From Antennarius striatus (taxonomy: Eukaryota; Chordata; Actinopteri; Lophiiformes; Antennariidae): a DNA stretch of 64,000 bases. Location of the stretch: NCBI RefSeq assembly GCF_040054535.1, contig NC_090780.1:11870501-11934500 (forward strand), written 5' to 3'. The notes under the pieces are model-generated. The model did no database searches. It saw only the letters and a program-made list of their open reading frames with translations, and was not told where the DNA came from. The translations under genes were made by a program, and so were the position numbers. This document shows positions 10,364 to 62,921 of the stretch, one piece after another. The number at the start of each line of letters is the position of its first letter. Positions within the stretch are counted from its first letter, which is position 1.

Positions 10364-11696
10364 TAAAATGGCAAACCTTCTGAAGCATGATCACCAAACA
10401 ATCAAGTGTTTCATTCAAAATAATCAACAGGGTCGCAAGAAGTGTGTGGAAAAACCAAGGCACAAAATAACTGCCCATGAACTGAGAAAAGTCAAGCGTG
10501 CAGCTGCCAAGGTGCTTGCCACCAGTTTTGCCATATTTCAGAGCTGCAACATCACTGGAGTGCCCAAAAGGACAAGGTGTGCAATACTCACAGACATGGC
10601 CAAGGCAAGAAAGGCTGAAAAACAACCACCACTGAACAAGACACACAAGCTGAAACGTCAGGACTGGGCCAAGAAATATTCAAGACTGATTTTTCTAAGG
10701 TTTTATGGACTGATGAAATGAGAGTGAGTCTTGATGGGCCAGATGGATGGGCCCCTGGCTGGATCGGTAAAGGGCAGAAGGCTCCAGTCCGATTCAGACG
10801 CCAGCAAGGTGGAGGTGGGGTACCTGTATGGGCTGGTATCATCAAAGATGAGCTTGTGGGGCCGTTTCTGGTTGAGAATGGAGTCAAGCTCAACTCCCAG
10901 TCCTAGTGCCAGTTTCTGGGAGACACCTTCTTCAAACAGTGGTACAGGAAGAAGTCCGCATCCTTCAAGAAAAACATGATTTTAACGCAGGACAATGCTC
11001 CATCACACGCATCCAAGTACTCCACAGCTTGCCTGGCAAGAAAGGGTCTAAACGAAGAAAAACTAACAACATGGCCCATTTTTTCACCTCAACTGAAACC
11101 CATAGAGAACCTGTGGTCCCTCATCAAATGTGAGATTTACAAGAAGGGAAAACAGTACACATCTCTGGACAGTGTCTTGGAGGCTGTGGTTGCTGCTGCA
11201 CACAATTTTGATCGTGAACAGATCTAAACACTGACAGAATTCATGGATGGCAGGCTTTTGAGTGCCCTTGTAAAGGAAGGTGGTTATATTGGTCACTGAT
11301 TTGTATTTGTTTTGTTTTTGAATGTCACGAATGTATATTTGTGAATGTTGAGCTGTTCTATTGGTTTCCCTGGTGAAAATAAGTAATTGAAATGGGTATA
11401 TATTTGTTTTTGTTAAGTTGCCGAATAATTATGCACAGTAATAGTCACCTGCACACACACATATCCTCCTAAAATAGCTAAAACTAAAAAAGCCCCGCTC
11501 CAACTTCCAAAAATAATCATCTTTGATATTAATGAGTCTTTTAGGTTAATTAAGAACATGGTTGTTGTTCAATGATAAAATTAATCCTCAAAAATACAAC
11601 TTGCTAATAATTCTGCACTGCCTGTATACCATCAACAATTAGCTTTTAATGTCAGACAAATGCCTAACTTGTCTATTATAGATTTTACAAGAATTT

Positions 11697-11993: not shown

Positions 11994-12167
11994 TGTTAAG
12001 CAATGATCCACTTTGAAAAGAAATTGCTTGTGATTTTTGGAGCATTGCAACCTGTATTTGGTGCTAATTTCCACTTTATCAAGGTCAAAGTCAGCTTTAT
12101 TGTCAAATGTAACATATACGTACGACATACAGTACAGATGAAATTGCAGTCCTCTCTGACCCACGGT

Positions 12168-13013
12168 AAACAGGCAGTACAACAGGCAGTAGTACAACAC
12201 AGACAGGACAACACAGAAGGACAACACAGGCAGGACAACACAGGCAGGACAACACAAGCAGTACAACAGGCAGTACAACACAGACAGTACAACACAGGCA
12301 GGACAACACAGGCAGGACAACACAGGCAGGACAACACAGGCAGGACAACACAGGCAGGACAACACAGACAGGACAACACAGACAGGACAACACAGGTAGG
12401 ACAACACAGGCAGGACAACACAGACAGGACAACACAGACAGGACAACACAGGCAGGACAACACAGGCAGGACAACACAAGCAGTACAACAGGCAGTACAA
12501 CACAGACAGGACAACACAGGCAGGACAACACAGACAGGACAACACAGGCAGGACAACACAGGCAGGACAACACAGGCAGGACAACACAGGCAGGACAACA
12601 CAGGCAGGACAACACAGGCAGGACAACACAGGCAGGACAACACAGACAGGACAACACAGGTAGGACAACACAGGCAGGACAACACAGACAGGACAACACA
12701 GACAGGACAACAAAGGCAGTACAACACAGACAGGACAACAAAGGCAGTACAACACAGACAGGACAACACAGACAGGACAACACAGGCAGGACAACACAGA
12801 CAGGACAACACAGGCAGGACAACACAGACAGGACAACAAAGGCAGGACAACACAGACAGGACAACACAGACAGGACAACACAGACAGGACAACAAAGGCA
12901 GTACAACACAGACAGGACAACAAAGGCAGTACAACACAGACAGGACAACACAGGCAGGACAACACAGGTAGGACAACAGGCAGTACAACATAGACAGTAC
13001 ATCAGACAGTACA
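12168..13013 (+). repeat. 14-bp minisatellite, about 60 units
   Basis: The unit is ACAACACAGGCAGG with frequent GGCAGG/GACAGG/GGCAGT variants. Because 14 is not a multiple of 3, one array is read in all three frames, giving long but meaningless open frames on both strands with a 14-residue period. An irregular block (AACACAAGCAGTACAACAGG) recurs at 12251 and 12473, about 222 bp apart, suggesting a higher-order unit. Confidence 0.95.
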
Positions 13014-37592: not shown

Positions 37593-40500
37593 TGGACAAG
37601 ATACTTAAGATTTCACTGTAATTTGACAAATATACAAAAAAATATACTTCTTCGAAATGAACTGTCTGAATACTAAGCGCTTCTCAAAAATGTCTGTTGG
37701 GAGTTATTCAGGTTAATGGAAATGAATTAAATCAAAATATTTAGTCAAATTCACACATTTTTAGGGGCATGTGTGACCAAAATGCCTGTCTCACATATTT
37801 AATTTCCACTTGATGATACAGTGGTATGAAAAAGTTTGGGCACCACTGATAATTTTCCATATTTTACATTATAAATCACTGGTTGTTCGGATCAACATTT
37901 TCAGTTAAATATATCATATAGCAGACAAATATAGTAGTAATTGATAAGTGAAATTAAGTTTCTAGAGATTTACAGAAAGTTTGCAATAGTTACTTAAACA
38001 AAAGTAGGCCGGTGCATAAATTTGTGCACCCTTGTTTGTTGATTTGAATACCTTTAGCACTAATTAGTGGTACACAAAATTTTTTAAGCAAGCTCATTGA
38101 CCCTTGACCTGCTTAAAAAGGTGATGCCAATCCTGACAAGGGTATTTATGGTGGCCACTTGTAAGTTGTTGTCCTCTGCATCTTCTCTGAAGAGTGCCAA
38201 CAGGGGAGCCTCAAAACAACTGTCAAATGACCTGAAAACAAAGATTGTTCATCGTCATCGTTTAGGGAAAGAAGGCAAAAAGCTATCTGAGATTTCAGCT
38301 GTCAGTTTCTACTGTGAGGAACGTAGTGAGGAAATGGAAGAACACAGGTACAGTTCTAGTTAGGGCCCGGAGTGGCAGGCCAAGAAAGATCCCAGACAAG
38401 TGGAGGCGACAGGTGGTGAGAACAAAGTAAACTCACAGACCGGCTCCAAAGACCTACAACATCGTCTTGCTGCAGATGGTGTCACTGTGCATCGTTCAAC
38501 TATTCAACACACTTTGCACAAATGGATGCTGTATTGAAAAGCGATTCGGAAAAAGCTTAATGCACATGCCACAAACAGTTGCTTGAGGTTCGCTAAAGCA
38601 CATTTGGAAAAGCCAGTTGTTTTTTTTGAATGAAGTGCTCTGGACTGATGAAACTAAAATCGAGTTATTTGGACATAACAAGGGGTGGTTATGGCAGACA
38701 AAGAAAAAAGTGTTCCTAAACAAACGCTTGCTACCCACAGTAAAATTTGGAGGCAGTTCCATCATGCTGTGGGGCTGTGTGTCCAGTGCAGGTACTGGAA
38801 GTCTTGTGAAAGAGGAAGATTGCATGGATTCCAGTCCATATCAGCAGATTCTTGCAAACAACGTTTAAGAATCGAAGACAAAGCTGAATTTATGCTGGGG
38901 CTGGATACTTCAACAGGACAGCGACCCTAAACGCTGTTCAAATTCTACTAAGGCATTAATGTAGAGGAACAAGTACAATGTTCTGGAATGGCCACCTCAC
39001 TCCCGGACCTGAATATTATTTTTAAAAATTGGTGTGATTTAAAGCGGGCTGACCGCGCTGGCAACCCATCAAACTAACCGAACTGAACAGTTTTTTTAAA
39101 TTCTATAAACTCCAGTTCACTTCTCAAACACCACTGTGTTCATTTGCTACATGATATATTTAACAGAAATTGTTGATCCAAACCACCATTGATTAATAAA
39201 GGAAAATCTAGAAAATTATCAGTGGTGCCCAGACTTTTTCATACCACTGTTTATACAGTAGTTAGGGCTGTGGCTGTATGAGTTTTCAGTGACCGACCAA
39301 TATACTGTATAACCAGAATGGCACTTAACCCTTATTCATAGCGTGCCACAATAAACTGTCATTGAATTCCAGGCCAGCCTGAATGATTTTTAAATATACT
39401 ACAGGACAAGATAATTTCAAAAGGAAGTTGGCTTATCCCAAGTTAAGTCAGATGGAAACCTAATCAGTCAGCTCTTCAGTGGGGATTAAACTGTTAAAAA
39501 AAAAAGTGTGTTACTTGAAACCAAGATTAAAATAAGTTTATGAAATAAACATGGATGCAGAAGACAGGGTTAGATGGAAGCAACTGATTCGCTGTGGCAA
39601 CCCCTGAAGGGAAAAGCTTAAAGGAAAAGAAGATGAAATAAACTCAATGTCAAATAGTTAAGTCATTTTAAGTCAAATTAGGTTACTGATCAGGTTCTTC
39701 AAAGGCACGGACACAGTTAAAACGGTTTTTCCAATACTTGTTAGTGAAGTACAGTACTCCAAACACATGGGAATAAATGAACAGTTTTGAAGCATTCTTA
39801 AGAGAGCTGACCAGGCTAAATGATGTCCTGCTACACAGACTGGATGAGGCACCATATGCACTCCTTTTGCTTTCTAAAGCAAAAACACACAAGTGGTTGA
39901 CACTTCCCTAAACAGGTATAGATTTGAATTTGGACTTGGCAGACAAATGTAAAAGGACATGGAACAAGATCAGGGCCTGCAAGTACTTAAACTGAACTTG
40001 CAGATTTAACATTTTCCTCACTGCATAGCTTGAATTAAATAGCTAAATTTAGTTGGAAAAATAAACCTTAGTTCTTTTGAAACATGTATTTGACGCCAAA
40101 AAAAGTAAAAATGTGAATTTATTATGTTGTTGTAGAATTTAACCAAATTTGTACTGTGTACTTTCAGCTTCAAGTCATAAAGTAATAATGTTTAAGTATT
40201 AAGCAAATTAAATGTAATTATACATATACAACATCCGTTGTATTAATGTTTGTGTCTTATTCTTTTAGACCCTGCTCTTCATAGGGATTGTCCCCTTGAC
40301 TGCAAGGTTTACGTTGGAAATCTAGGAAACAATGGAAACAAGACAGAGTTAGAAAGAGCGTTTGGATACTACGGTTCTTTAAGAAGTGTTTGGGTTGCCA
40401 GGAACCCCCCAGGCTTTGCTTTTGTTGAGTTTGAAGATCATAGAGATGCTTCTGATGCTGTGAGAGAACTGGACGGAAGGTAGTACTCAGTACAATATTC

Positions 40501-43129: not shown

Positions 43130-44074
43130 TTTTTTTTTTTTTTAAGACTAGTTGCCAGGTGAAAACAACCTACTGGCCATGTTACATAAGTTGTCATGGC
43201 AATAATTTCCCAATTTACAGGAACAGTTTTTAATTTGAATTTAATATAAAACATAAAACAAAATCTGTCTTGATATTTTGAATGGGATACTGAATTCAGT
43301 TTTTGCATTACCAACCTGTTTTTTAACTGTTGAATTAAAGTTACTTCAATGTTTTTACTTGTTTATTTCTTTTGTTTTTTAATTAGTAGTTGACTCTTAA
43401 CTTAGTGCCAGATGGTTATGTTAGTACTTTATTCCGGTGACTTGCAAAAATGGTGTAAATACTGGTTCTTTTATTTTTAGGCTACTCTTAAAATGTATAA
43501 CTTCATCTGTAATCAGTATTTTACGTAAATCACTTTTGCAAAAGAAACCATTATATTCCAATATGCTTGCTTCGCCTGACATTTTGTGCTGATGCAGTTA
43601 AACAACTTGATCATTAAATGTGTCTCCATCATGACAGATTCCTCATTGTCCAGATTATTTTCTCTTGAAGAGTTCTGCAGCCCTTACCAAAGATTATAAT
43701 CAGACCTTAATATGAAAAATGTATGTATTTTTTTACTTCTGGTTATATCTGTTAACAAAAGCTGCAAGTGCAACCCACACAGGAAGTTGCAAGTCATAGC
43801 TGCAGAGGAGGAGCAATTTGTGAAATATAGAAGTCGTTGAGGTTGACGTGCAAAGACGTTCGTGCAACATGACAGAGGTGCCAGATTGCAGTGGTAAGCA
43901 CATGCCAAAAAATATTTTATCAAAGGTTAATACTTTTTAATTGCTTTATTTCTGTAATTCCAATATTTACATAGTTTTAAAAGGGAATCAGAATGAATTG
44001 TGTTTTTATTTGAGAACAAAATATTGACTGCGTGTCCTATTTGTAATGTGAGACTTGGTTGACGCAGACATATA
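43130..44074. other. srsf3 3' region and rab44 upstream region
   Basis: Mostly AT-rich. A possible short first coding exon lies at 43869-43893 (ATGACAGAGGTGCCAGATTG then AGTG, donor GTAAGC), reading MTEVPDCS. A matching acceptor lies at 45679/45680 in phase. I cannot confirm that this is the real rab44 start. Confidence 0.3.
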
Positions 44075-45621
44075 CAGGTCTTTTTCAAAAAATTAGCATA
44101 TTGTGATAAAAGTTCATAATTTTCCATGATGTAATGTTAAAAATTAAACTTTTATATATTTTCGATTCATTGCACACCAACAGAAATATTTCAGGTCTTC
44201 TATTGTTTTAATACTGATGATTTTGGCATACAGCTCATGGAAACCCAAAATTCCTATCTCAAATAATTAGCATATCATGAAAAGGTACTCTAAACAAGCT
44301 ATTAACCTGATCATCTGACCCAATGAATTAACTCTAAACACCTGCAAAAGATTCCAGAGGCTTTTAAAAACTCCCAGCCTGGTTCATTACTCAAAACCGC
44401 AATCATGGGTAAGACTGCTGACCTGACTGGTGTCCAGAAGGCCATCATTGACACTCAAGCAACAGGGTAAGACACATTTCTGAGCGAATGGGCTGTTCCC
44501 AGAGTGCTGTATCAAGGCACCTCAGTGGGAAGTCAAAAGTGTGGCAGAAAACGCACAACAGGAAGTGACCGGACCCTGAGAAAGATTGTGGAGAAGGACC
44601 TGTGGAAGCAGTGGACTGAGTCTGGAGTAGAAACATCCACAAGTACCGTGCACAGAAGTGTGCAGGAAATGGGCTACAGGTGCCGCATTCCCCAGGTCAA
44701 GCCACTTTTGAATCAAACAGCGGCAGAAGCGCCTGACCTGGGCTACAGAGAAGCAGCACTGGACTGTTGTTCAGTGGTCCAAAGTACTTTTTTCGGATGA
44801 AAGAAAATTTTGCATGTCATTCGGAAATCAGGGTGCCAGGGTCTGGAGGAAGACTGGGGAGAAGGAAATGCCCAAATGCCTGAAGTCCAGTGTCAAGTAC
44901 CCACAGTCAGTGATGGTCTGGGGGGGCATGTCAGCAGCTGGTGCTGGTCCAGTGTGTTTTATCAAGGGCAGGGTCAATGCAGCCAGCTATCAGGAGATTT
45001 TGGAGCACTTCAATCTTCCATCTACTGAAAAGCTTTATGGAGATGAAGATTTCATTTTTCATCACGACCTGGCACCTGCTCACAGTGCCAAGACCACTGG
45101 TAAATGGTTTACTGACCATGCTATTACTGTGCTCAATTGGTCTGCCAACTCCTGACCCCATAGAGAGTCTGTGGGATATTGTGAAGAGGAAGTTGAGAGA
45201 CACCAGACCCAACACTGGATGAGCTTCAGGCCGACATCAAAGCATCCTGGGCCTCCATAACAACTCAGCAGTGCCACGGGCTGATTGCCTCCATGCCACG
45301 CCGCATTGAAGCAGTCATTTCTGCAAAAGGATTCCCGACCAGTTATTGAGTGCATCACTGAACATAATTATTTGAAGGTTGATTTTTTTTTTGTATTAAA
45401 AACACTTCTTTTATTGGTAGGATTAAATAATTTTTGGAGAAAAGGATTTTTGGTTTTTCTTTACTTTTTTGCAGAAATCATCAATATTAAAACAATAAAA
45501 GGCTTGAACTGCTTCAGTTGTGTGTAATGAATCTAAAATCTATGAAAGTCTCATGTTTATCAGTACATTACCAAAAATAATGAACTTTATTACAATTTGC
45601 TAATTTTTTGAGAAGGACCTG
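44075..45621 (+). mobile_element. Tc1-like transposon, inactivated, between srsf3 and rab44
   Basis: TA flanks at 44073-44074 and 45622-45623. The ends are CAGGTCTTTTTCAAAAAATT and its inverse (AATTTTTTGAGAAGGACCTG). The transposase starts at 44406 (MGKTADLTG) and shows FSDERKF and HHDLAPAHSAK. Frameshifts occur early and near 44795, and a small deletion removes the SPDLNP part before the last catalytic Glu, so it is dead. Confidence 0.85.
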
Positions 45622-46910
45622 TACATCTCTTGAATTCAGGTATGTGATACTGAGCGATGAATGTCAAATTATTTTGCAGGCTCAGTGACTAAATATCTTG
45701 TGCTTTGGGAGAAAGTAAGTCATGTCAGAAAAAAAATTCTTCACATCAACAGCTAGCAAATCAAAATATGGCTCCTGTGGTGGACAACAACCACCGATTG
45801 GGCAGTACCATTGCATCACATTTCGTCCCAGAAGATAGTTCTGATACATTAAATGTATCTGCTGATCATGGAAATTCACAACAGAATCTCAAATTACACG
45901 TTCACCAGAACTCCCAGAGAACAGAAGAAAACTTGGGTTGTCCCTGACTTCTTTGACTTGACCCATCAAGAACGCGGTAGTTGAATCAGACCCTGAACCA
46001 GAGGGTATGATGAAGGAAAGAACAGGGCTTATGAAACTCCCAAAGCAGCACAATCTTCACTTCTGTTACAATCTTACAGGAAGGAAGAGTTCAGGAAATA
46101 CACTAAGCAACGTGTGTCTGCAAAAGACGGCTCTTTGTATACAGCCATTATATCTGATTCTTTTCAGATTCAGAGCAAACTTCAGGCTGATGTAGAACAT
46201 TTGATTTCCAAAAGTGAACATTTACATGCAGACAAAGATAAAAATGACACAGATTATGAAGTAGTAGAGACCAAATAAGTAAGAACAACACTGGAAGCAA
46301 CTGGTCTGATCTTGTGAATGATATAGTTGGTGAGAACCTTGCTGACATCTCAGACTTGTCCAGGTTAAGTTTACTTCCATGTCTTTCAATACATGAACGG
46401 CTTACTGACCAATCAAGTCCTACAGAGATGATTGAAAAAGAACCTTCTGATGTCTATAACAGAAAAAGACAGGAACGCTGAATTGCTGCAGCAGGAAGAG
46501 ATTTTAGGAGGTCCCTATTAGGTGAGTGAATTGGATGTAAAGTCACTCATAAACCAGCGTTCTGTCACAACAGAGCTAATCACTGATGAAAACAAACCCA
46601 GGGAAGTTACTGAACTGAAATACAATGTTAAGCAAGAAATATTTTCAACACCAAATGAGAAGTTGCCGAAAGATGAGGAACAAAGTGGACATATTTTTCC
46701 TGTCAAAGATGGTCAGTGTTCAGAGAGTGTTGTGCACACAGTGAACAGAATTTAAATCGTAGTAACGTGAGTAACACTGCAGCTTTAGACCCTGCAAATT
46801 ATTACAGGTATTCCAGTTTCCATACCAAGAAACTGCAGGTCAGTGTATTAAAAAGAGAATACTCAGGTCAGACTCACAGTGTGTTTTCTGTAACAGAAAA
46901 AGAAAGCACG

Positions 46911-47230
46911 GAGGGGGTGAAGAAGAACAAGAAGTACACTTTATTAATCCCCGCAGGGAAATTACATAGTCACTCAGGTATATTTTTACATGTTCTTTGT
47001 GTTAGTTTTATGGAAATCAGTGCATACACAGGCCCCGTGAAACACAGCACACAGGGGGGCCTGTATGCATGCAGTTAGTACACACATCAAACAACACACA
47101 TAGGGAGGCAGAGTGACGGGCAGCGGCTTCAGGAACGTGCCCCAATTGAGCAGCTTGTAGGGGGGACGGCGCCTTGGTCAAGGGCGCCTCGGCAGTGGCT
47201 GGGAGGTGAGCTGGGAAGACACAGAATTAC
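46911..47230 (-). mobile_element. SINE-like retroposon inside the rab44 exon
   Basis: It contains AAGAAGTACACTTTATTAAT, CCCCGCAGGGAAATTACAT, a CAGGCCC...GCATGCAG block and GCGCCTCGGCAGTGGCTGGG, the same ordered text as the SINE-like piece at 9.43-9.72 kb. The tRNA-like end appears incomplete here. No clean target-site duplication was found. Confidence 0.5.
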
Positions 47231-47931
47231 CAAGGCAGGGTGGCAATACGCAGGACAGCTACATGGTGGAACAATTACTAATTAACATCAGGCGATAAAG
47301 AGTCAGAGAAATGCTGCATCGGTGAGCAAGCAGAACCTGAATGCATTGTTAAGCAAACAACAGTTTCCTAAACAGAGATGGAGATGCCTACAAATGAAGA
47401 ACTAAGTAGTATTTTAAACTTATCTTAAACCAAGGGCTCTTATCAGTTAGTAGATGCTGTACAATTTTTTGACAAACAGGATATTGAGCTGATACCAATG
47501 GATGAGATGCATCAAATCGATTTCTCAATTAAAAACAGCAAACATTCTTCACAAACTCAACTCTCAGAAACATATGCTTCTTTGGACCGTCAACCACAGA
47601 TCAGTTATGCCAAAGAAGAGCAGCCAAGCCAAACAGATGTCAACCCAATCCAGAGGAGAAGAACGATGAGGTCTAGTGTAAGAAATGACAGACAACAGCA
47701 TATAATGGAATCTGATGCTGCATCATTAGAGGAACTCAGAGAAGACATTTTAGTAAATACCAGGGGTAATGAAGTTTTCAAATCAAGACAAGTGGAAGAG
47801 ACTGGAAGGGGAACAAGTCAGGAATTTTTTTAAGAGAGTGAGCATGGAATTTTCATTCATTTCCTGTTGGTAGATTTGATATACAGGCTTTAAAAGAAAA
47901 CTTTTTTTAAAAAAATCATTAGACTACTTAA

Positions 47932-50900
47932 ATGACAAATATCATGATAACAATAAATTACAGATCTGTAGCACTGAAAAAGCTGACACTGCACAACATA
48001 AGGTATGTGAAGGCCAAGTGGAGGACAATAGAAAGCCCTTTTTTGAGCAGGCAACAATCAGTCAGGAGGAGCAATTTGTCTTCACAACAGGGAACTTCTT
48101 CTCCTTTCGGCTTTTCCCTTCAGGAGTCGCCACAGCGAATCAGTTGCCTCCATCTAACCCTGTCTTCTGCATCCTCTTCTCTCACAGGGAACAGCAAGTC
48201 TTATTTTCAAAGACTGCAATCAGAAGAAAACACTTGTTTGCATCTCCAACCTCAGCAGGAGGATGAACACTTCAACTCCAGCAGCGATAGAATAAAAATG
48301 GAGCCTAGCCATCGAGACAAAGGAAGACAGCATGCATGTAGTCCAGTTACTGAACTAGACTACAGACATGAACATGAAATTCTTAAAAAAACCGAGGATA
48401 ATGAACTATTTGATGCTAAAATACCGTCATTAAAAAAAGAGACTGATGTGCAGGAAAAGTCTATGGAAACCATTTTAGAACAAGTGAACTCATTAGCCGC
48501 TGCTCAGATTGCAAGTGTTAGAGGGCAAAGCAAAGAAAATGCACATGATGGCTCACTTGAACAATCTACTCCAGGTTTACAGTTAAGTCCAGAGGACTTT
48601 GTAAATGAAGTATATAAAGATGCAGTTGAAGTTACACAAGAGCAAGAGGTCCATCAAACCCACACATATTCCATCCATAAGAGAAACAGGAGAAAACTCG
48701 GGTCAAACCGGAGAAATAAAGAACGATTCCATGTGAGGGACTCTATTTCCAATCTCAAAATGGAACCTATAGGAAATTCATGTGGTGATGAAGCCCTTGA
48801 CACAACAAAAGTGTTATTTTCAATAAGCAACAATAATGAACAAAATGATAAACAGATTATGAAGACAGGAACAACTGTGACCCAAAACATTGCAGTTAAC
48901 AGCGCAATTGTAAACACAGAGGGCACTTTGAGCACAAACAAAGATGATAAGAAAATCCATGATGAGGAAAAGAATTCCAACAAAGATCCAGCGAATTTAA
49001 GTGGAGGAGATGACGGAGTTAAAATGGACTTCATGCAATCACCAGAAGATGGTGTCAACGCAAAAGCATACACTTTGGATCAAGAAACTTTATCTCATGA
49101 AAAAGTCCAAGCTGGACAAGATATAATTCTGCAACAGAAAGAGGATACCTTAACAGCTGTGAAAGATGTCAGTGACTGTAATGCAGAAGTGTGTAGGTCA
49201 TCAGAGGATTTTGGTCAGAATGTAAAAATATTTGACGAATCCACAGATAGAAACCATGAATTTCAAGAGAAAACCTCGCAGGAGATCACACATGCACAAT
49301 CGTTTTCTGTGATGCACATGAAGCGCCCATCAGATCCAGTTGAAGAAGAGTCACCAGTGTCTTTGACTGCAGAGATGTCAAAAAATGGAAATTTCATGCC
49401 ATCACCGAATCCTGCATGTGACGGACGACAGGAAACTAATGAAACTTGTGTCATTCACAACAAGGGACAAAGAAGCACCTCAGTCTTGCAGAGGCCTACA
49501 GCAGTCCATCCTGGGCAAAGCACCTCCTTCAATGAAGAAGTGGGTAATCCTGATATACTTGTTCAGGCAGGTCAAATAATGGTTAGTGACAGGAATGTTG
49601 ACATTGACATTAAGCCGGCACAGCTGACTGATTTTACAGAGACCGAGCTGCTCGCTGAAAGAACCTTTGATTTGATAGATTCAGTGCAGAATTCAAATAC
49701 GGAAAATATTATAAATAATGCTTTCACAGGACAAAGCCTTGTGGCTTTATGTGAGACAACACAGACTACACAAAACGATGACAAAGGTTTAGAAATCACA
49801 AACTTACCACAGGAAAAAGCATTGAAATCAGCACAGCCACTAGTGATTGTGACACCGTTGGAAATAGAGAAAGCTGAAGTCAGAGGAGCTGAACAAGAGC
49901 ACAACAATGACCAGGAATATACACAAGAGCTGAACAATGGGAATGAAGGAGTTCTCAATAAACATGTTGAGATGAAGAATACAAATACAAATTTAAATTT
50001 GGGCAACAGTAGAAGAAAGATGGGCTCTCTCCGCAGAAATCTTGAATCACAAAGCAAAGGGGAACCTTCAAATCAGCAGAAAAATGGGGATAATGACACA
50101 AAAGAAATCCAAACAAATTTTGGACATGTAGGTTCTGACTCTGGCTCTGAACAAAGTAACAAAACAGTGTTGGAAATAGTCCAGCGCAATTATGCAGGTG
50201 AGTCTCTCTTCTTACCTTCATCTCAACTGTTAAAAGAAAATATGCAGTGTGTAGAAATAAAGCATAACTTATATCCTCTTTCCCTGCATTATCGTTCATT
50301 TTACCAAAACCTGATTAACTGTTAGAAAAAATATCCAGTGGCAGACGAAGAAAACTGGGATCTCACCGGAGGTTACATGGACAGAGGACAAAAGTTAAAA
50401 GTCATTTTGTTGAAAGTTCCATGAAGTCAACTGATGAACAATCTTTGGACAAAAACACAATGTCAGAGGTAAGCAATAAAGTCCTGATGTTTTTGTGCAT
50501 TTTTTAAAATCTCATTTGCATTCAAATCATTTACATTGGGCATCTTTGACTCATTAAGGGGAATACTTAAACTGATCAACAAATAATTGAATAATGATCG
50601 GTTCTTTCTGAACTTTCGAAATGTGTGCAGCTTTTTTCCTTTTGTCATGCAATTGGACTTTTGCAATGTCTTTTCTGACTTAAAGACCATGTTGTGCTGT
50701 ACTTCCCATTTACGTAAAAGCTCTTGGACATTGGTCAAGGTTTTTTGCAAGCAGAATCAAACAACAAAATGAGGAACATGCAGATAAAACTGCATTTTTC
50801 TCACAGTGAAATGGAAAACATGTATATGACTTCTTCTTAATGAAATAGATTTATGTCATTATGATTTATGTTTTTACTTTACTGTGCAGTTTATGAAACC

Positions 50901-53900
50901 TGTCTCCAAAATGTCATGTTTTCGTTTCTGTAGTATAACACCCTTACATTAGTGGAAGTACAAGTAACACACATTCTTGAAAGCTTTATAACATATAGCA
51001 TTTCACCATAGCAAATGTGTCAGAGTGTCAGAGCGTTATTTCCAGGAAACCTGTCAACTGCAATGTGTAATTCTTCAGTTCTTGACGAGAGGATTTCGTA
51101 TAAATAAAGCTAATTTTATCATTTAGCGGGCCAAAGACAAAACCCGTACACTCTACCAGCACAGTTTCATGATTTAGATGTTTTTGTCTTTGCAGGTCAA
51201 TGACAGTGACAGGATATTGTCATGGAACATCAGCTCCTCAAATACAGGAGAGCGCTCAGAACCTGTTAGGTAAGTCCAGATACAATGAATACTTACAAAT
51301 CCAAGGCGTGATGAGCTTGTTTAGGCTGTTCTGACAAAGGAGTCCTAGCCACTATCCTTGTGGTACACCTATCAGTGGAATTATAAATCTTGTCAATCTT
51401 CAATAATCAAAGCTAGTGCTCTGACCTATTGTCTTTGATCAAAGCACTAGCTTTGATCAAATTGGCCTTCTCCCTCGTCTTTCTATTTAATCCGGTTCCT
51501 CCATCCATCCATCTTCCACCGTTTATCTATAGTGGGGTTGCGGGGGCAGGAGCTTCAACAGGGAATCCCAAACTTCCCTTTCCCCAGCTACATCCACCAG
51601 CTCTGACTGGGGGATCCCAAGGCATTCCCAGGCTAGTGTTGAGATATAATCCCTCCCACTGCTCCTGGGTCTGCCCTAAAGCCTTCACCTAGCTGGACGT
51701 GCCTGGAACACCTCCCTAGGGAGGCGCCCCAGAGGCATCCACACCAGATGCCCAAACCACCTCAGCTGACTCCTTTCCACGTGAAGGAGCAGCGGCTCTA
51801 CTCTGGGTCTGAACCCCTCGTGAACAGCAGTGTTTCTCACCTTATCTCTAAGGGAGACACCAGCTGTCCGACAAAGTAAGCCCATTTCCACCACTTGTAT
51901 TCGCGATCTCATTGTTTCGGTCATGACCCATCACTCATGACCATAGGTGAGGGTAGGAACAAAGACTGAATTGTAAATAGAGACCTTTGCCTCTTGGCTT
52001 ATTTCCCGGTTTGTGACAACAGTGCAGTAAAGCGACTGCAATACCGCTCCTGCTGCCCTAACTCTCCGTCCAATCTGACAATCCATTGTCCTTGTGAACA
52101 GGACCCCAAGATACTTAAACTCCTTCACTTGTGGAAGGCAGTCCACCAGCTTCCTGCTAAAGACCATCCCTGACCATCAGGGTCCACCACGGTGTTCGAG
52201 GGTGCCCTTTAGGCACCCAAAACCTTGAGACCTAGTTTTCTAAAGATCAATGTCATCATCTAATTTTCATTCCCTTCGCCGCCCGAGTAATGTGCGTTTT
52301 GTTTCATCTTTCTATCTGCAACGGTTGTGAAGATATTTGGTGGACTAACAGATGGAAGAATGGACTATTGGATGAACACACAAATGCTGACAATAACAAT
52401 ACATCACCGCTTTGGAATGTGATAATTATAACCTCATCCATTAAAAATTACACTTTGGAAAGTCTGATTTTATGTAAATATGTTAATCAGAATCAGTAAA
52501 GTGAGAATTACATGACAGTCTGCTAGTCACAATCCACATAATCACTTAACAACCTGATTAGCATTATGGTCCTGAGACATTGGATTAGCTCACAGAGATA
52601 ATTTAATGTCCAGCGTAACCATACTACAAGGTGAGGAAGAAGCACATTGGTTTGAAACATTTCTCCTACTATTTCTGCAACTCTTTTCTAAAATAAGGAT
52701 CCGTATTTGGCTGTATATTGAGGACTTTCAGTATTGTAGCTACATTTTTCCTGATGTTTAGATATTTTTGCTCCCCACAACCACATTTTTTTAGATTAGC
52801 TTCAACTTTATTGTTATTGCATATGTCACAGGTGCAAAGCAGATCAGTGACTGCAAAGTAGTGGTAGGCGAGAGTGTAGCCAAACAGCATAGGATGGTGG
52901 TGTGTAGGATGACTCTGGTGGTGAGGAAGATAAAGAGGGCAAAGGCAGAGCAGAAGACAAAATGGTGGAAGCTGAAAAAGGAAGAGTGTTGCATGACTTT
53001 TAGGAAGGAGTTAAGACAGGCTCTGGGTGGTCAGGAGGTGCTTCCAGATGACTGGACAACTACAGCTAATGTGATCATCTGGAAGGAAAGTAGATAAGGA
53101 GACTTGGTGGTGGAATGAGGAGGTACAGGGGTGAATACAGAGAAAGAGGTTAGCTAAAAAGGTGGGACACTGAGAGGACTGAGGAGAGTAGACAGGAGTA
53201 CAGGGAGATGCAGCGTAAGGTGAAGGTAGAGGTAGCAAAGGCCAAACAAGGGGCTTATGATAACTTGTATGCTAGGTTGGACAGTAAGGAGGGAGAGACT
53301 GATCTATACAGGTTGTCAAGAAAGAGAGACAGAGATGGGAAGGACGTGCAGCAGGTTAGGGTGATTAATGATAGGGACGAAAGCCTATTGACAGGTGCCA
53401 GTAGTGTGATGGGAAGATGGAAAGAGTACTTTGAAGAGTTAATGAACGTGGAAAATGAGAGAGAACAAAGACTAGAAGGGGTGACTGCTGTGGACCAGGA
53501 TGTAGCAAAGATTAGTCAGGATGAGGTGAGGAGGGCATTGAAGAGGATGAAGACTGGAAAGGCAGTCGGTCCTGATGATATACCAGTAGAGGTTTGGAAG
53601 TGTCTAGGAGAGGTGGCAGTAGAATTTCTGACTGGGCTGTTTAACAGGATCTTAGATAGTGAGAAGATGCCTGAGGAATGGAGGAGAAGTGTGCTTGTGC
53701 CCATTGTTAAGAACAAGGGAGATGTGCAGAGTTGTGGCAACTACAGAGGAATAAAGCTGATGAGCCATACAATGAAGTTATGGGAACGAGTAGTGGAAGC
53801 TAGACTAAGGGTGGAAGTGAGCATTTGTGAGCAACAGTATGGTTTCATGCCAAAAAAGAGTACTACAGATGCAGTATTTGCTTTGAGGATGTTGACAGAG

Positions 53901-56900
53901 AAGTCAAGAGAAGGCCAGAGAGAGCTGCATTGTGTTTTTGTAGATCTAGAGAAAGCTTATGACGGGGTGCCCAGAGAGGAACTGTGGTATTGTATGAGGA
54001 AGTCTGGAGTGGCAGAGAGGTATGTTAGAGCAGTGCAGGACATGTATGAGGACTGTAAGACAGTGGTGAGGTGTGCTGTAGGTGTGACAGAGGAGTTCAA
54101 GGTGGAGGTGGGACTGCATCAGGGATCAGCTCTGAGCCCCTTCTTGTTCGCTATGGTGATGGACAGGCTGACAGACGAGGTTAGACAGGAATCTCCATGG
54201 ACTATGATGTTTGCAGATGACATTGTGATGTGCAGTGAGAGCAGGGAACAGGTGGAGGAGAAGCTAGAGAGGTGGAGGTTTGACCTGGAAAGGAGAGGGA
54301 TGAAGGTTAGCCGCAGTAAGACAGAGCACATGTTTGTGAATGAGAGGGACCCAAGTGGAAGAGTGAGGGTACAGGGAGAAGAGATCAAGAAGGTGGAGGA
54401 TTTTAAGTCCAGAGCAATGGAGAGTGTGGAAAAGAGGTAAAGAAGCGTGTACAGGCAGGATGGTGCGGGTGGAGAAAAGTGTCAGGTGTGATGTGTGATA
54501 GAAGAGTTTCAGCTAAAATGAAAGGAAAGGTGTACAAAACTGTGGTGAGACCAGCGATGTTGTTTGGTCTAGAGACAGTGTCACTGAGGAAAAGACAGGA
54601 GACAGAGCTGGAGGTAGCAGAGATGAAGATGCTGAGGTTCTCTCTGGGAGTGACCAGGATGGATAGGATCAGGAATGAGTACATCAGAGGGACAGCACAT
54701 GTTAGAGGTTTTGGAGATCAAGTCAGAGAGACCACACTGAGATGGTTTGGACATGTCCAGAGGAGAGATAGTGAATATATTGGTAGAAGGATGCTGAGTT
54801 TTGAACTGCCAGGCAGGAGGCCTAGAGGAAGACCAAAGAGGAGGTTTATGGATGTAGTGAAAGAGGACATGAAAGTAGTTGGTGTGAGAGAAGAGGATGC
54901 GAAGGACAGGGTTAGATGGAGGCAATTGATTCGCTGTGGCGACCCCTGAAGGGAAAAGCCGAAAGGAAAAGAAGATGTCACAGGCACAAAGCAACAAAAT
55001 GCACTAGCACCACTATTTATGAATTTAAATTGATTAAATTATAAAACAGTTTAACGGAACACTGCAAATCATTCCTGAGTATCCAATACACACTAAATGA
55101 CATATCCATATATTTTTCCTATTACGCATTCTTTAAAATCTCAACCTCAAATACAAACTTATCTATTGAAAACAACACAACCTAGTCGGTTTGTCTGTCA
55201 CAGAAATACAGATATACAATTGCTGGCATGAAATAGTGATGAATGACCTGAGCATTTAAAGTGGTCTGAATGTGAACAACTTTTTTTGTATTTCTCTATA
55301 CGCTGTGTTTGCTTTGAACTATGTTTGGTTGCCGATTGGGAGGTACATAATGCTAATGGCCCCTTTTAATGCTGTTCATTTATCATTTCATAGTGAAAAT
55401 ACTGTGGTACGAGAAATTCCAATTCATCATCCTTCTGCTGAAATTTCCCACGTTCAAGAGGGTAAGAAGACATTTTATTTGTGTCAACAGAACAGCAATT
55501 ATCTCACATGCAGCTGAATGTAGCTAGTTGTGAAAAGATGAAGTAAAGTATTTCCAGAGGCATTTTCATTGTGTCTGTGGCTATTTCCACAGGAGCAGCT
55601 CAGACATCAAAAACTTACAATGTGATGATGATTGGAGATGGCAGCGTAGGCAAAACCTCCTTCATAAAAAGAGCTGAGAGTGGAACATTTGTGTTTGATG
55701 TACCCGCTACAGTCGGTAAGATACTGGTCTGTATCCTACTGCAATCCCATGAATGTATAAATATCCAAAATAGCATCATATACTTACATTTTTCAGGATT
55801 GGATATTTGCATGTGGACTGTGGCGATTGATGGAAAACCGGTAACACTCCGGTTGTGGGATACAACAGGTCAGGAAAAGTAAGTTTCCTTTTTCCTTTCA
55901 CCATTCATTATTGACACTTCAATTGTTGTAGTTGTGATGAAAATATGTAGACTGTAGATCAAACATTCATTAATTCATTCATTCATTCATTCATACAATC
56001 ATTCATTCAACCAACATACAATTCATCTGCTATTGGATCAATTGGATCTGCTTTCTTTTTCAGGCAAATATTCGGGTGGAAGGCGATTTTATTGCATTGT
56101 TTCATGTAATACAATTAAATGTCAGTCAGCTTTATTGTAAATTTTACTAAATATACAGTACATGCTATTAGTATTTAGTATTAGTATTGAAATTTATAAA
56201 TGAATGAATGGAAAGGCAATGTACTATGATTCGATACTTGCCATTTTTCACTCCTAGGTTTTAAGTCATTTTTCAAAGTTCATACTTACGTAGTCATAAC
56301 CAATCAAAATTTTGCATGAAAATAAGTTCAAAATATTTTGTTATGAGTATAACACCTTTTAAAATAAGTACTAATTGTGGTGTAAAATTGCTAACGCAAA
56401 GTACAAATTGCAAAGAGTACTTACTGTAGTTGATTTTGAATTGACCAAAAAGAAGAAAAGAATTGCTGATCTTGCATTCATTATAGGTAAATCAATGTAA
56501 AGGCAGTGACAGTATAGCATAATGAAATCATGAACTTCTCTATTCTATTTTTTACATAGATGGTCATAGGTCAAGGTTATTTAACCTCTCGGTCTGTCCA
56601 GCAGAGGTTGTAAGCTTGTGAATAAACACTTCTGATGAGCATTGTGGTTTTGATCACATGAGGGACATCCTCTCTACATTTAATGTGAACAGTCAGATGC
56701 TTTGTAAATGTGAGAACCAAGGCAGCAGCCTTCCTGACCTTCTTTGAGCATTGTTCAAACCACTACGTGAACGTGTTGAGAGTTGTCCTTCACGCAAGTC
56801 TCTAATTTTAGAAGTTTCAGAACATTTTTGATACAGACCTGTATCATTTATTTATGCAGTTATTTACTCAGTATCACTCAGAACATTGTACTTTTTGGGA

Positions 56901-58704
56901 ACATTTCCATCACAGTCAGTTACACATTTATATATTGAAACTGAACAGCAGAACCAAATTCTGATCGAATTTCCACTCAGCAGCCCTTCTGGAGTGGTTG
57001 GAGTGAAGTGCCTTGGGCAAGCGCTGCCTTTCACTTTTCTCATTCAGATATACAGTATTGTTATCTGGTTACAAGCATGCTACACTGACTTCTTAGCCAG
57101 TGCTGTCCTCTGCTTGTTATATCCTATAAACAGAGGTAGACATATGACATGTAGCAGTCTTCTGACTGCATACTTAAATCGACAAGGATAACTTATGTGT
57201 CAAAAGATGTTTAGGTTATAAAGTTAAAAAGTATGAAATTCTCCAAAATACAAATGAAAGGACTTCACATTAAAAATAATACACAGATCCGTGCAGTCAC
57301 TTCATATAGCATCAGCCTTTCCAGGAAAGACTGCACAATTTTGAGAAAATTCTTCTTCTTCTTTCTTTTTGAAAAAAGACTTCAGGCAAGTTTTTGCAGA
57401 CTGTGCCTTCATTAAGGGTTTCTGAGCTGAGTTCCTCTTGTTTACAACACAAATGTGTTCAACTTTAAAAGGATAAGTAATTTGAATTGTCTTAAGTAAA
57501 TCTCCTTTCTAATCATACATTTTTTGTCCTACAAAGATATCACAGTATCACAAGGCAATTTATCCATAGAGCCCAGGCCTTTCTATTGATGTATGACATC
57601 ACTTCCCGTAAAAGTTTCTCTGCAGTCAACTACTGGGCGGACTGTATTCAGGTACAGTGCATTAAAGGTTATTTTCAAAATTTATGATACCTGTCTGAAA
57701 AGGCTTCCAGGAAACTATAAATTTTAGATATACAGTATAATAATTGTGAAATTTCTCAATGCTGCAGTAAGTGTACAGCACTGAGAAAGGTTATAGTTAT
57801 AACATACAGTATTTTAATTTTTGTTAGTCGCCACTTTATTGGCTGCGCAATAATTATTTTCTCTTTACTGATATTGAAACTAATTTTTCCCCATGGCATT
57901 CTGTTAAATTTTAAAATTCAATTTATTAACTAGTTGAAAACATTTAATGTCTGAGTTGGTTGACAACATGTTGTAATGAGAGAGATGTTTATTGAGTCTG
58001 GAGTATGGGAATTTCACAAGCCTACTGGCTTCTACCCCTCAGCCCTGTATTTTCCGGATGTTGTTGTTGATGTTGTAAATGTGAGGAAGGTGTGAAGTCT
58101 TCCACATCGAAAAATAAATAAATACAAATAAATTAATTTTAGCAAATTTTTTTAATGTAAAAAAAAAAAATTATTATATTAATGTTTTGCAGGACGGGGC
58201 AATGGAAAATGTGACCGTTTTGCTTCTTGGAAATAAGTGTGATTGTGCAGAGCGGCAGGTTGAAACTCAGGAGGGGAAAATCATTGCTAAGGTATGGATC
58301 TGAAGCATTGACACTATTAATTTATCTAGTGATGACAGAAAAAACCTGGGAAAATGCTTGTGATTATCCAAAAGCTTCATTAAAAGCAGCAGTTTTACCT
58401 CCATAGGAATACAACTTAGTTTTCATGGAGTGCAGTGCTGCAACAGGAAAAAATGTGATTGAGTCTCTGGAAACTGTGGCCAGGTAAAATATTTTGACAA
58501 TGTCACTGAGTTTTCTTTTATCCTGCACCATCTATCACTAGTTTTAAGAAACAGACTTTTAATGGTATGTAATTCTATTAATTGTGCTGACAGGTGTGTT
58601 ATTATGTTGTTCCTAGGGCCTTGAGTCAAAAGGTTGACACAAGAGAGGAAACCATGGCATTACATAAAGAGCCAAAACAGAAAAACACCATGAGATGCTG
58701 CTGA
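47932..58704 (+). CDS. rab44: Large Rab GTPase, Rab44-like, apparently N-truncated
   Basis: A membrane-traffic GTPase with a long disordered N-terminal region. Exons: 47932-50197, 50326-50468, 51196-51269, 55394-55461, 55593-55715, 55797-55878, 57537-57651, 58193-58291, 58407-58483 and 58617-58704. Phases agree; from ATG 47932 they give 1044 aa. The first 55 codons are in a non-ancestral frame because of an LINE insert at 48096-48183; ATG 48298 is an alternative start. The first exon is acidic and has repeats of a RRKLGSxRRN motif. The Rab domain is complete: P-loop GDGSVGKTS, switch I ATVG, WDTTGQEK (Ala of DTAGQ replaced by Thr), NKCD, ECSA, and a CC terminus for geranylgeranylation. The human neighbourhood SRSF3-CDKN1A-RAB44 supports the name. 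CRACR2A-type Rabs are alternatives. AATAAA is at 59197. It may be functional or recently inactivated. Confidence 0.7.
48096..48183 (-). mobile_element. 88-bp RTE-2-type LINE 3' stump inside rab44 exon
   Basis: Reverse complement of the LINE 3' end at 54.89-54.97 kb (GACAGGGTTAGATGGAGGCA, GAAGGGAAAAGCC). Flanked by ACAGGGAAC at 48087-48095 and 48184-48192, a 9-bp target-site duplication. Insert plus duplication is 97 bp, not a multiple of three. Confidence 0.85.
51390..52420 (-). repeat. Unclassified interspersed repeat, copy C, interrupted by a Rex3-like LINE
   Basis: Read on minus, it starts near 52418 with AAAGCGGTGATGTATTG and continues with AAAGATGAAACAAAACGCAC, as copies A and B do. It resumes at about 51490 after the LINE and ends near 51390 with CAAAGCTAGTGC-type palindromic text. 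Confidence 0.6.
51495..52185 (-). mobile_element. Rex3/RTE-like LINE, 5' truncated
   Basis: Minus-strand frames encode KEFKYLGVLFT, IYNSVFVPTLTYGHE and [19 protein letters not shown], the C-terminal half of a reverse-transcriptase protein of RTE-clade fish LINEs. The 3' end has GATG repeats, fitting Rex3. Stops and frame changes break it. It lies in a rab44 intron. Confidence 0.7.
52842..54973 (+). mobile_element. RTE-2-type LINE, 5' truncated, with 19-bp target-site duplication
   Basis: The flanking copies ATGTCACAGGTGCAAAGCA (52823-52841) and ATGTCACAGGCACAAAGCA (54974-54992) differ at two bases. The element encodes the reverse transcriptase: VAKQHRMVVCRM, KAVGPDDIPVEVWK, QQYGFMPKKSTTDAVF, VFVDLEKAYD, GLHQGSALSPFLFA and MMFADDIVMCSES (FADD box). 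A small deletion near 54410 (VEDFKS) shifts the frame and brings a stop at 54438-54440; the tail resumes at 54479 with SLRKRQETELEV and RWFGHVQRRD. It lies in a rab44 intron and is inactive. Confidence 0.9.
55966..56007 (+). repeat. (ATTC)n microsatellite
   Basis: About nine ATTC units with one interruption, in a rab44 intron. Confidence 0.85.
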
Positions 58705-60549: not shown

Positions 60550-62921
60550 GATTTGCTGCCATTACACTTGGACCTTGTTCTGTTCCTTGTGCAGATTTTC
60601 TTTTTTTCTTAGAGGAATGGTATTTTCTAATAGCCTGCATAACATCAGAAGCAGTCCAGTGGTGACGGATCAGGGAATCGTGCAGAGTGAAGGGGCCGTC
60701 TCTGGTCCGTCGAACTCCTTTACACGCTGCGGTGCTACGAAGCTCAAGTCCAATCTCATGCACGACTTTGCGCAAATATTTCTGTGTCTCATTCAGACAC
60801 TGCACCTCTGAGTGAAAAGAAGAAGATCACACATAATCAGTCAGTATGCTGCAAATTGGAGAGTTTATGGTGTCAAATGAGAAATTGTGTGTTCAATTCC
60901 TGCCTAAAGTGAAGTTGGGAAGCTGGAAGTGAACACAACGCAGGCCTTTCAGGATGGGTGCTGATTTCCCTTCGGGACCCAGTAAACCTTGTGCAGCCAA
61001 CTCATAAGCTTCCTGTGAGTGCATGTCAACGTTGGAATACCTGTACCAATAAACAAAATGGTCATTTTACTGGAACATTTTACTGGAACCCTGGTGAAAG
61101 TCCTTTGTAGACTGATGTGTTACATAAAAGGCTACATGTCAAAAATTAATGAACACAAAAAACCCAAACCATACCCAAAATTTGTTAAGTTTATGGAAAT
61201 GAATATTAAAGGTCAACAATACGTTAACAAGGCCTTTTGATTGACTCCCTGCAGCATCGCCAAGACTCGTTCCAGCTTATCCAGTGTGATGTGATCTGTT
61301 GAACACAATGTTTTAGGGTTAGTGTGTATGCAGGCATACGCACACACACACACATACGCACATATACAGTATATATAAATCAGTAACCGTAGTTGATATA
61401 ATACTTCACTTATTATGTTAAACTATCAAGTGAATAAAATGATAAAATGCATATTAAAAAAACTGAAGATGTCCTACCGTAGGTGGATTTTTCCAAAACT
61501 CTGCCTGTGTGAGAGAAATCATCTGTTGCAGTCCCAAATTCACCCTCCACTGTGTAATCCTAAAACACATCAAACAGCATTAAATCTATAATCTATCGTC
61601 ACTGCTTCTTAGCAGCATCTGTTATTAGCAGAAATGATAACTTACCCTTGTAACTCGTGTTGAGTACAAATCCTGTAAGGCCCTGTTTCCATTTCCAATT
61701 GCAAGAACTGAAATCAAACAAATAAACAAAACATTAAACAAAAAAATAGACAAAAAACACATTTCAAATACAAAGTGGTCTGAAAAGGGTTTTCTCATAT
61801 GGTCATCTCCAAAACACTCATACCTAGAACACCAGAAGATGGTGCATCCAGACGATGTCCCACTCCAACTTTAACATGCTGGAATTCAGGTCCAGCCACT
61901 GAATCACACAGAAAGGATATTTCTTGTTCATATATGGTCTTCATTGTGCATGTATAACAAATACGTTTTTATCACTATGCTGTCTGTGCAGCTATTACCA
62001 ACCTTTACTAATATGGGAATGTGGGAATGAAGACATTATGAACATGTGTCCACATGTGTAAAATAACAACAGATTACAGTATCCTGTCTTGTTTCACAAA
62101 AAGACCGAGCATCACCAAGAGCAGTATTCTATTTTAATAACAAACTAATCAGTAACAGGTATGAAGAAAAAACAAACAGTTCGACATTGTCTGACCGAAA
62201 ACTGACTTGGCTCCCTCTATAACAAGATCAAGAAATATATTGCGAAAGACACTGCACATGACAATCATGACAAGATTGTTTAAAGATCATCCCACATACT
62301 GCCACCCTGCTAAATAGTCCTACATTTTTAATTACCCTTTCATCTATATTTGTAATGCACACTTTTTACTTATTTTCTGGTCACAATTAATTAGTGTAAT
62401 TTTTTTTTGCACTATATAAGAAATGTTAATAGTTTATAAGTATTCCTGTTCACCACCAGGTTATTATCTGACTTTGTTTGAAGAACACATCTACATGAGA
62501 CTGGAGTTGAGGAGAGGTGGTCGCACAAACCCAGAGGATGCTTGGAGAGAACCGGCAGGGAGACTGCAGACAGCGTCAGTCCTTTCGGGGTGTCGCTCTC
62601 CGTGTCCGAGCCTCCGTGGGTCAAGAAGCGGACCTTCTGTGGAAGTGGGACGGACGGTGTAGCATTCACGCCTGGAAGACGTCACACGCCGAGGGTCAAC
62701 AGGACACAGGACCCACGCTCGACACAACCCGCACTGATATTGCGCTACCGTTTGAAATGTATTTGACATGTATGGACGATGAGGAAACTCTAGACATCCT
62801 TACCTTTCAAAATATTCGTCTCAATGGTGTCCCGTGCGAGTTTCCAGTGGACACCTGGGGGTTTGTACACACAAAACAAACCCTCCAGCCTCCTGAACAA
62901 ACGAACCGCTGGAGTCGCCAT
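60545..62921 (-). CDS. trub2: TRUB2 mitochondrial mRNA pseudouridine synthase
   Basis: A TruB-family synthase that converts uridine to pseudouridine in mitochondrial mRNAs and supports mitochondrial translation. Coding exons in transcript order: 62921-62804, 62671-62531, 61898-61824, 61707-61646, 61559-61478, 61295-61223, 61040-60904 and 60807-60545, giving 316 aa (human 331). The N terminus MATPAVRLFRRLEG precedes VYKPPGVHWK. The catalytic motif GHRLDAPSSGVL supplies Asp104. The C-terminal part reads HEIGLELRSTA and VRRTRDGPFTL. Exon phases agree. Exon 7 ends TTTAG|GC rather than GT, a GC-AG intron. The start is the first ATG in frame with a VYKPPG core. The signal at the stop codon overlaps AATAAA. 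The gene is transcribed toward rab44. Confidence 0.93.
61335..61360 (-). repeat. Short AC-rich repeat in a trub2 intron
   Basis: A short CACACACA run mixed with TACGCACAT lies between two trub2 exons. It is minor. Confidence 0.5.

Follow-up and report, generated by a model that had tools for sequence, protein, structure and literature searches.

Organization of the Rab44-like locus

The window analyzed here is a 64,000-base stretch of the Antennarius striatus genome (positions 11,870,501–11,934,500 of contig 5, NC_090780.1, in a 548-Mb assembly of 42 contigs) that contains no N and carries on its + strand a gene for a large Rab GTPase. Eleven exons were proposed for this gene, giving an open 967-residue model with both a start and a stop codon, in which all ten introns have GT-AG ends and the phases, checked exon by exon, match across the whole set, including the proposed junction 43893/48188 (Table 1). 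The name Rab44 used below was taken from an initial annotation of this DNA, made by reading the sequence alone, and not from orthology. That annotation had noted a region at 45.7–48.1 kb with frame changes, stops, a short interspersed element (SINE), and the stump of a long interspersed element (LINE), followed by about 670 codons without a stop up to 50197 and by nine exons joining in phase to a complete GTPase, and these observations were borne out. The LINE tail lies at the border between the broken and the open half of this giant exon.

A search of the genome with the 967-residue protein gave 48 matches, with 47 of the 168 candidates scored. The giant-exon part matched at its own locus only, and no second genomic copy of it was found in this search; the matches elsewhere in the genome covered residues 758 onwards, which form the Rab domain, at 22–39% identity. 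A stretch at ~56064–56160 had been considered as a broken switch II exon, which would have meant a dead GTPase, and was dropped when an intact exon was found at 57537–57651.

Table 1 Proposed features of the large-Rab locus, in positions of the window
Feature	Position	Strand	Remarks
Exon 1, putative first coding exon	43869..43893	+	MTEVPDCS plus 1 base, phase 1, donor GTAAGC
Proposed present-day intron 1	43894..48187	+	4,294 bases, would take in what was once the 5′ part of the giant exon
Tc1-like DNA transposon in old intron 1	44066..45630	.	Inverted ends of ~200 bases, 78% alike; DDE_3 under the Pfam cut-off
Decayed 5′ half of giant exon	45712..48086	+	Ancestral acceptor 45712 or 45680; 12–15 frame breaks, SINE excluded
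SINE within decayed half	46919..47213	.	7 substitutions relative to a ten-copy majority sequence, plus a 7-base deletion
Degraded copy of the RRxLGSxRR repeat motif	47657..47692	+	RRRTMRSSVRN
Target-site duplication ACAGGGAAC, left copy	48087..48095	+	
LINE 3′ tail, 88 bases, antisense to the gene	48096..48183	-	A few bases at its ends also belong to the duplication
Branch-point-like CTAAC inside LINE tail	48154..48158	+	A at 48157, 30 bases upstream of the acceptor
Target-site duplication ACAGGGAAC, right copy	48184..48192	+	Its AG (48186–48187) is the proposed acceptor
Intact 3′ half of giant exon, proposed present exon 2	48188..50197	+	
Exon 3	50326..50468	+	Intact RRRKLGSHRR motif
Exon 4	51196..51269	+	
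Exon 5	55394..55461	+	
Exon 6	55593..55715	+	G1 motif GDGSVGKTS
Exon 7	55797..55878	+	G3 motif DTTGQE
Exon 8	57537..57651	+	Remainder of switch II, LLMYDIT
Exon 9	58193..58291	+	G4 motif NKCD
Exon 10	58407..58483	+	G5 motif ECSAA
Exon 11	58617..58704	+	Ends MRCC, then stop

Frame breaks are confined to the 5′ part of the giant exon

The reading frame was followed with a model that allows breaks, under three priors and with training either on the intact half or on the nine downstream exons alone, the latter avoiding circularity; the controls preserve the dinucleotide level, and the positions of the breaks are approximate. Trained on the intact half, the model needed 8 breaks in 45713–46918, 6–7 in 47214–48086, and none in 48188–50197 over the three priors, compared to control means of ~17–18, 12–13, and 28–31, respectively. 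Trained on the downstream exons, it needed 7, 5, and 0 breaks for the same three stretches compared to 15, 11, and 24 in the controls, while two introns sat at the chance level (21 breaks vs 22 and 10 vs 9). Since the 5′ half takes only about half of the chance number of breaks and the two introns take the full number, it looks like a former coding frame that is now broken 12–15 times. A previous pass over the frame had given 8 + 4 breaks, its second piece beginning at 47290; the controls for it were shuffled by base, and its z values (8–21, with introns reaching up to 5) are overstated. Two candidate ancestral acceptors for the start of the giant exon were picked by eye, at 45712 and 45680, and neither is among the region's 20 best AGs.

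The 3′ half presents the opposite picture. Over its 2,010 bases, the gene frame has no stop, where the two remaining forward frames have 39 and 73, and the coding signal reaches z = 10.6–11.2 (5.8 with downstream training). Among Markov sequences generated with the same composition, 2,000 of first and 2,000 of second order, the longest open stretches reached 206 and 207 codons, respectively, compared to the ~670 observed.

This one-sided spread of lesions bears on whether the whole gene is simply a recent pseudogene whose 3′ half has stayed open by luck. The youth of both insertions, described below, and a changed residue in the Rab domain would fit that explanation. If decay were even, the 5′ half would receive all 12 breaks with a probability of 2.5e-4 when the giant exon is considered and of 2.2e-5 when all coding sequence is, and the ~2.9 kb of retained coding sequence contains no break, compared to 12 in ~2.0 kb, for which P = 3.5e-8 at the 5′ rate; these values count frame breaks, leaving out the SINE and LINE insertions. 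A pseudogene is expected to carry lesions throughout or to have lost an essential domain, whereas 48188–50197 carries none, the Rab domain is full, and every later splice site fits and keeps the phase. An improbable spread of this kind argues against a plain pseudogene, which we regard as unlikely. The very recent inactivation that the initial annotation gave as an alternative is, as a total inactivation, disfavored by this spread. The change itself is young.

Sequence errors in a gene still encoding an intact long protein would be another source of the 5′ breaks, some of which do adjoin runs of A or T (e.g., at 47831). Four to five of the breaks are in-frame stops, however, and the frame is also cut by the 295-base SINE and by a 97-base LINE insertion, both of them family copies with relatives across the genome, making this explanation highly improbable.

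Probable insertion of a LINE tail into coding sequence

The segment at 48095–48186 is 93% identical, in reverse orientation, to 54883–54974 of the same window, which sits after a reverse-transcriptase frame, and it matches at least 39 further genomic locations at 97–99% identity, with 40 of 947 candidates scored. The family is presumably RTE-like. The tail is flanked by the two copies of ACAGGGAAC, and its net gain of 97 bases shifted the frame. When the flanks are joined to restore the empty site, a continuous open frame results, with EEQFVFTTG running directly into NSKSYFQ; this frame stays open over the 68 codons leading up to the empty site and runs on through it. The open frame across the joined flanks suggests that the LINE landed in coding sequence.

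A predicted 3′ splice site at the LINE/host junction

In the direction of the gene, the end of the tail reads CTAACCCTGTCTTCTGCATCCTCTTCTCTCACAG, followed at the exon border by GGAAC, so that a CTAAC and a pyrimidine tract precede an AG that is completed by host sequence. Scored with approximate literature weights, the acceptor at 48188 reached 9.6, compared to 3.24 at the empty site. It ranks first among the 527 AGs in 43.9–50.2 kb, is one of only 2 of the window's 4,198 forward AGs to score 9.6 or more, and exceeds the gene's nine other acceptors, which range from −4.6 to 7.5. These values point to a strong predicted 3′ splice site composed of the tail's pyrimidine tract and CTAAC in front of a host AG. 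Exon 1 joined to 48188 reads MTEVPDCS-G-NSKSYFQ and stays open to the stop at 58704, giving the 967 residues of the model.

The initial annotation had likewise proposed a switch to a shorter protein, attributing it to translation from 47932 or 48298. The switch itself is supported, and the proposed starts are not. They would require a new promoter or transcription start within 45.7–48.3 kb and would leave the LINE-made acceptor unused. The frame is indeed open from 47932 to 50325, and the ATG at 48298 lies in the retained frame, but on an unspliced message from the old promoter the two starts are preceded by 46 and 50 earlier ATGs, respectively. The ATG at 47932 lies upstream of the LINE tail and out of the ancestral frame, and it would add ~85 residues, of which those before the tail are out of that frame as well. 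Such a start would also leave the presence of a strong, in-phase acceptor unexplained. The initial annotation had itself named splicing that links an upstream coding exon past the broken part as the finding that would speak against its start codons, and a splice of this kind is predicted in phase at the LINE/host junction. We, therefore, consider translation from a new start improbable.

Age of the insertions

The SINE is a family copy with relatives across the genome, and a majority sequence was built from ten aligned copies, namely itself and the nine best-matching others (0 to 9 differences). It departs from this majority by 7 substitutions in ~300 columns and one 7-base deletion, or roughly 2.3%. 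No target-site duplication was found around the SINE in the stretch searched, which left out 47214–47229. Among 29 fetched copies of the LINE tail, 25 carry another base at 48125 and 4 have the same base, amounting to 0–1 private changes over 88 bases and a divergence of 0–1.1%, with a wide interval. One other copy (L027) ends in CACAG at the border and is therefore a second copy with an AG already in place next to the pyrimidine tract; the other 28 of the 29 run into shared sequence. On any reading, the change at this locus is recent.

Proposed course of events

Given the position of the tail, the strength of the predicted acceptor, and the distribution of the breaks, we propose, with a probability of about 0.6, that the LINE tail broke the frame of the giant exon and formed a new splice site, and that the gene persists by encoding a shorter protein, with the skipped half left to decay. 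A Rab44-like gene would once have had a giant exon extending from ~45.7 to 50.2 kb, into which an 88-base LINE tail inserted antisense at ~48.09 kb, adding 97 bases with the duplication and putting the long reading frame out. The tail, whose CTAAC and pyrimidine tract come immediately ahead of a host AG, would have created a strong 3′ splice site, to which exon 1 could then be spliced in phase, skipping the remainder of the old exon. The product would consist of the C-terminal part of the giant exon and the Rab domain, and the ~2.1 kb of former coding sequence now skipped would have become intron and decayed without constraint, with the location of the breaks suggesting that the retained part is still selected. 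We infer from this that the new acceptor is used, that exon 1 is the first exon, and that the old 5′ half of the protein is lost.

Several observations weigh against this interpretation. Measured against dinucleotide-level controls, the 5′ half shows a modest coding signal (z 2.5–3.6), and, under the strictest prior, one or more of the 100 controls required no more breaks than the 8 and 6 observed. The splice weights are approximate, as noted above, and a second strong AG within the tail, which scores 8.8 as an acceptor at 48124 and would be out of frame, is the main potential competitor. Exon 1 is short and was inferred from the sequence alone, and chance alone would give a phase match in one case out of three; the match gains weight from falling together with the top-ranked acceptor and with the boundary that separates broken from intact sequence. 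An initial hidden-state scan that included a noncoding state called 45933–48751 noncoding, and preferred noncoding for the 5′ half alone; its transition order was faulty, it also swallowed more than 500 bases of the intact half, and it was not used. Finally, the 12 breaks in 2 kb correspond to ~4% neutral divergence at an assumed rate of one break per ~seven substitutions, which, set against the 0–1.1% of the tail, hints that decay may predate the insertion, although the intervals are wide. The LINE may have started the 5′ decay, or it may have rescued a gene in which loss of the 5′ half was under way.

The modest coding signal would also be expected if the 5′ stretch had never been exon, being ordinary intron upstream of an ancestral exon that equals the retained part, and the low scores of both candidate ancestral acceptors are in line with this. 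That history is very unlikely given that the breaks are well below chance where two introns are not, that the frame before the empty LINE site continues through it, and that a degraded RRxLGSxRR motif is present at 47657.

A stronger form of our proposal, that the young tail broke the giant exon and rescued the gene in a single step by supplying a phase-correct 3′ splice site, turning ~2.1 kb of coding sequence into intron, is put forward tentatively, at somewhat less than even odds. Since a branch-like CTAAC and a pyrimidine tract are both present when the tail lies in antisense, any such copy truncated beside a host G would amount to a ready-made acceptor, and with ready-made acceptors in so abundant a LINE family, the family could reshape exons elsewhere in the genome.

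The Rab domain and family membership

The model ends in a complete Ras/Rab domain (Pfam PF00071, 3.1e-46, domain positions 2–160 of 162), with the nucleotide-binding motifs present in the translation and cysteines for prenylation at its C-terminal end. In the G3 motif, DTTGQE replaces the DTAGQE of all three solved relatives aligned, an unusual change at a near-invariant GTPase position that perhaps reflects altered hydrolysis or relaxed constraint and that we take to lie at the same position as Ras A59T. The top matches among the best 60 of 906 solved relatives were Rab26, Rab3B, and RASEF, with near-equal scores, and no relatives were found in the viral sequence collection.

The name Rab44, as opposed to Rab45/RASEF or Rab46/CRACR2A, is provisional for this large protein with its C-terminal Rab domain and MRCC end. 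No EF-hand was detected by Pfam on the 967-residue model, and none matched an EF-loop pattern when all six frames of the window were examined, a pattern from which a departing EF-hand could escape. A basic motif, RR(K)xLGSxRR, occurs four times (47657, 48688, 50011, and 50346), degraded in the decayed half and intact in the three copies of the retained part. The sequence RRKLGSNRR presumably resembles the N-terminus of human RAB44.

Neighborhood of the gene

Tail to tail with the Rab gene, at ~60550–62920 on the minus strand, lies a gene for a TruB-family pseudouridine synthase, recognized by Pfam TruB_N (1.3e-26) on exons joined by eye. Three Tc1-like transposase remnants were named by eye: the one at 10326–11227 passes the Pfam DDE_3 cut-off, the one in old intron 1 falls under it, and that at 38088–38868 was identified by eye only. 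A minisatellite-like repeat with units of the DNTGRTTQTGQHRQ type occupies 12000–13000 and is open in several frames on both strands.

Comparison with known systems

If the proposed course of events is true, it shows a gene surviving a large break, the insertion that ruined the frame also giving a way round it. It would also mean that a gene half open and half broken should be searched for new splice sites before it is classed as a pseudogene. One study reportedly describes elements that insert whole introns.

No report of the loss or shortening of rab44 in fish appeared, by title, among the matches listed for Rab44, zebrafish, and teleost. In zebrafish, rab44 is reported to be one of the neutrophil genes (PMC11505477). 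In mouse, Rab44 has a natural short form, Rab44-S, without the EF-hand (PMC8303950), which resembles the present case as an N-terminally shortened large Rab that keeps its Rab domain; that form is a regular isoform of an intact gene, while here the loss would be due to an insertion.

Intronization of exonic sequence, with cases from Caenorhabditis and Cryptococcus (PMC3443670; PMC3257199), has been attributed mostly to point mutations (PMC3443670), and such introns are short, ~50 bases according to an author's reply (PMC3257199). The proposed change is like these in turning exon into intron through a new splice site and unlike them in that a single insertion would be responsible and the converted stretch is ~40 times longer. 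In human SMOX, part of a coding exon was intronized by a new donor with the loss of 53 residues, as described in a study of splice-site changes specific to humans that left out repeat-derived sites (PMC3538075). Coding exon sequence would likewise have been removed here after a new splice site arose, although with ~690 codons lost and with an acceptor made by a LINE.

The closest parallel is intronization induced by transposable elements, for which four human Alu cases have been described, all in the 3′ untranslated regions of last exons and alternatively spliced (Sela et al. 2007; PMC2394776). The present locus has an element within an exon, with a target-site duplication, and a splice site predicted to be strengthened by it, and the exonic past of the skipped stretch is suggested by the continuous frame over the empty site together with the modest coding signal. 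As in the Alu cases, a retroelement in an exon would supply splice signals, and former exon would be removed by splicing. Those cases lie in untranslated regions, and a coding-sequence case with a readable skipped half would let both timing and selection be measured. Unlike in the Alu cases, ~2.1 kb of former coding sequence would be skipped with the frame kept, and the acceptor of an existing intron would move with no new intron formed, a large case for coding sequence. Intronization induced by transposable elements is known, and at this locus a single insertion appears to have turned the entire 5′ half of a coding exon into intron without loss of frame.

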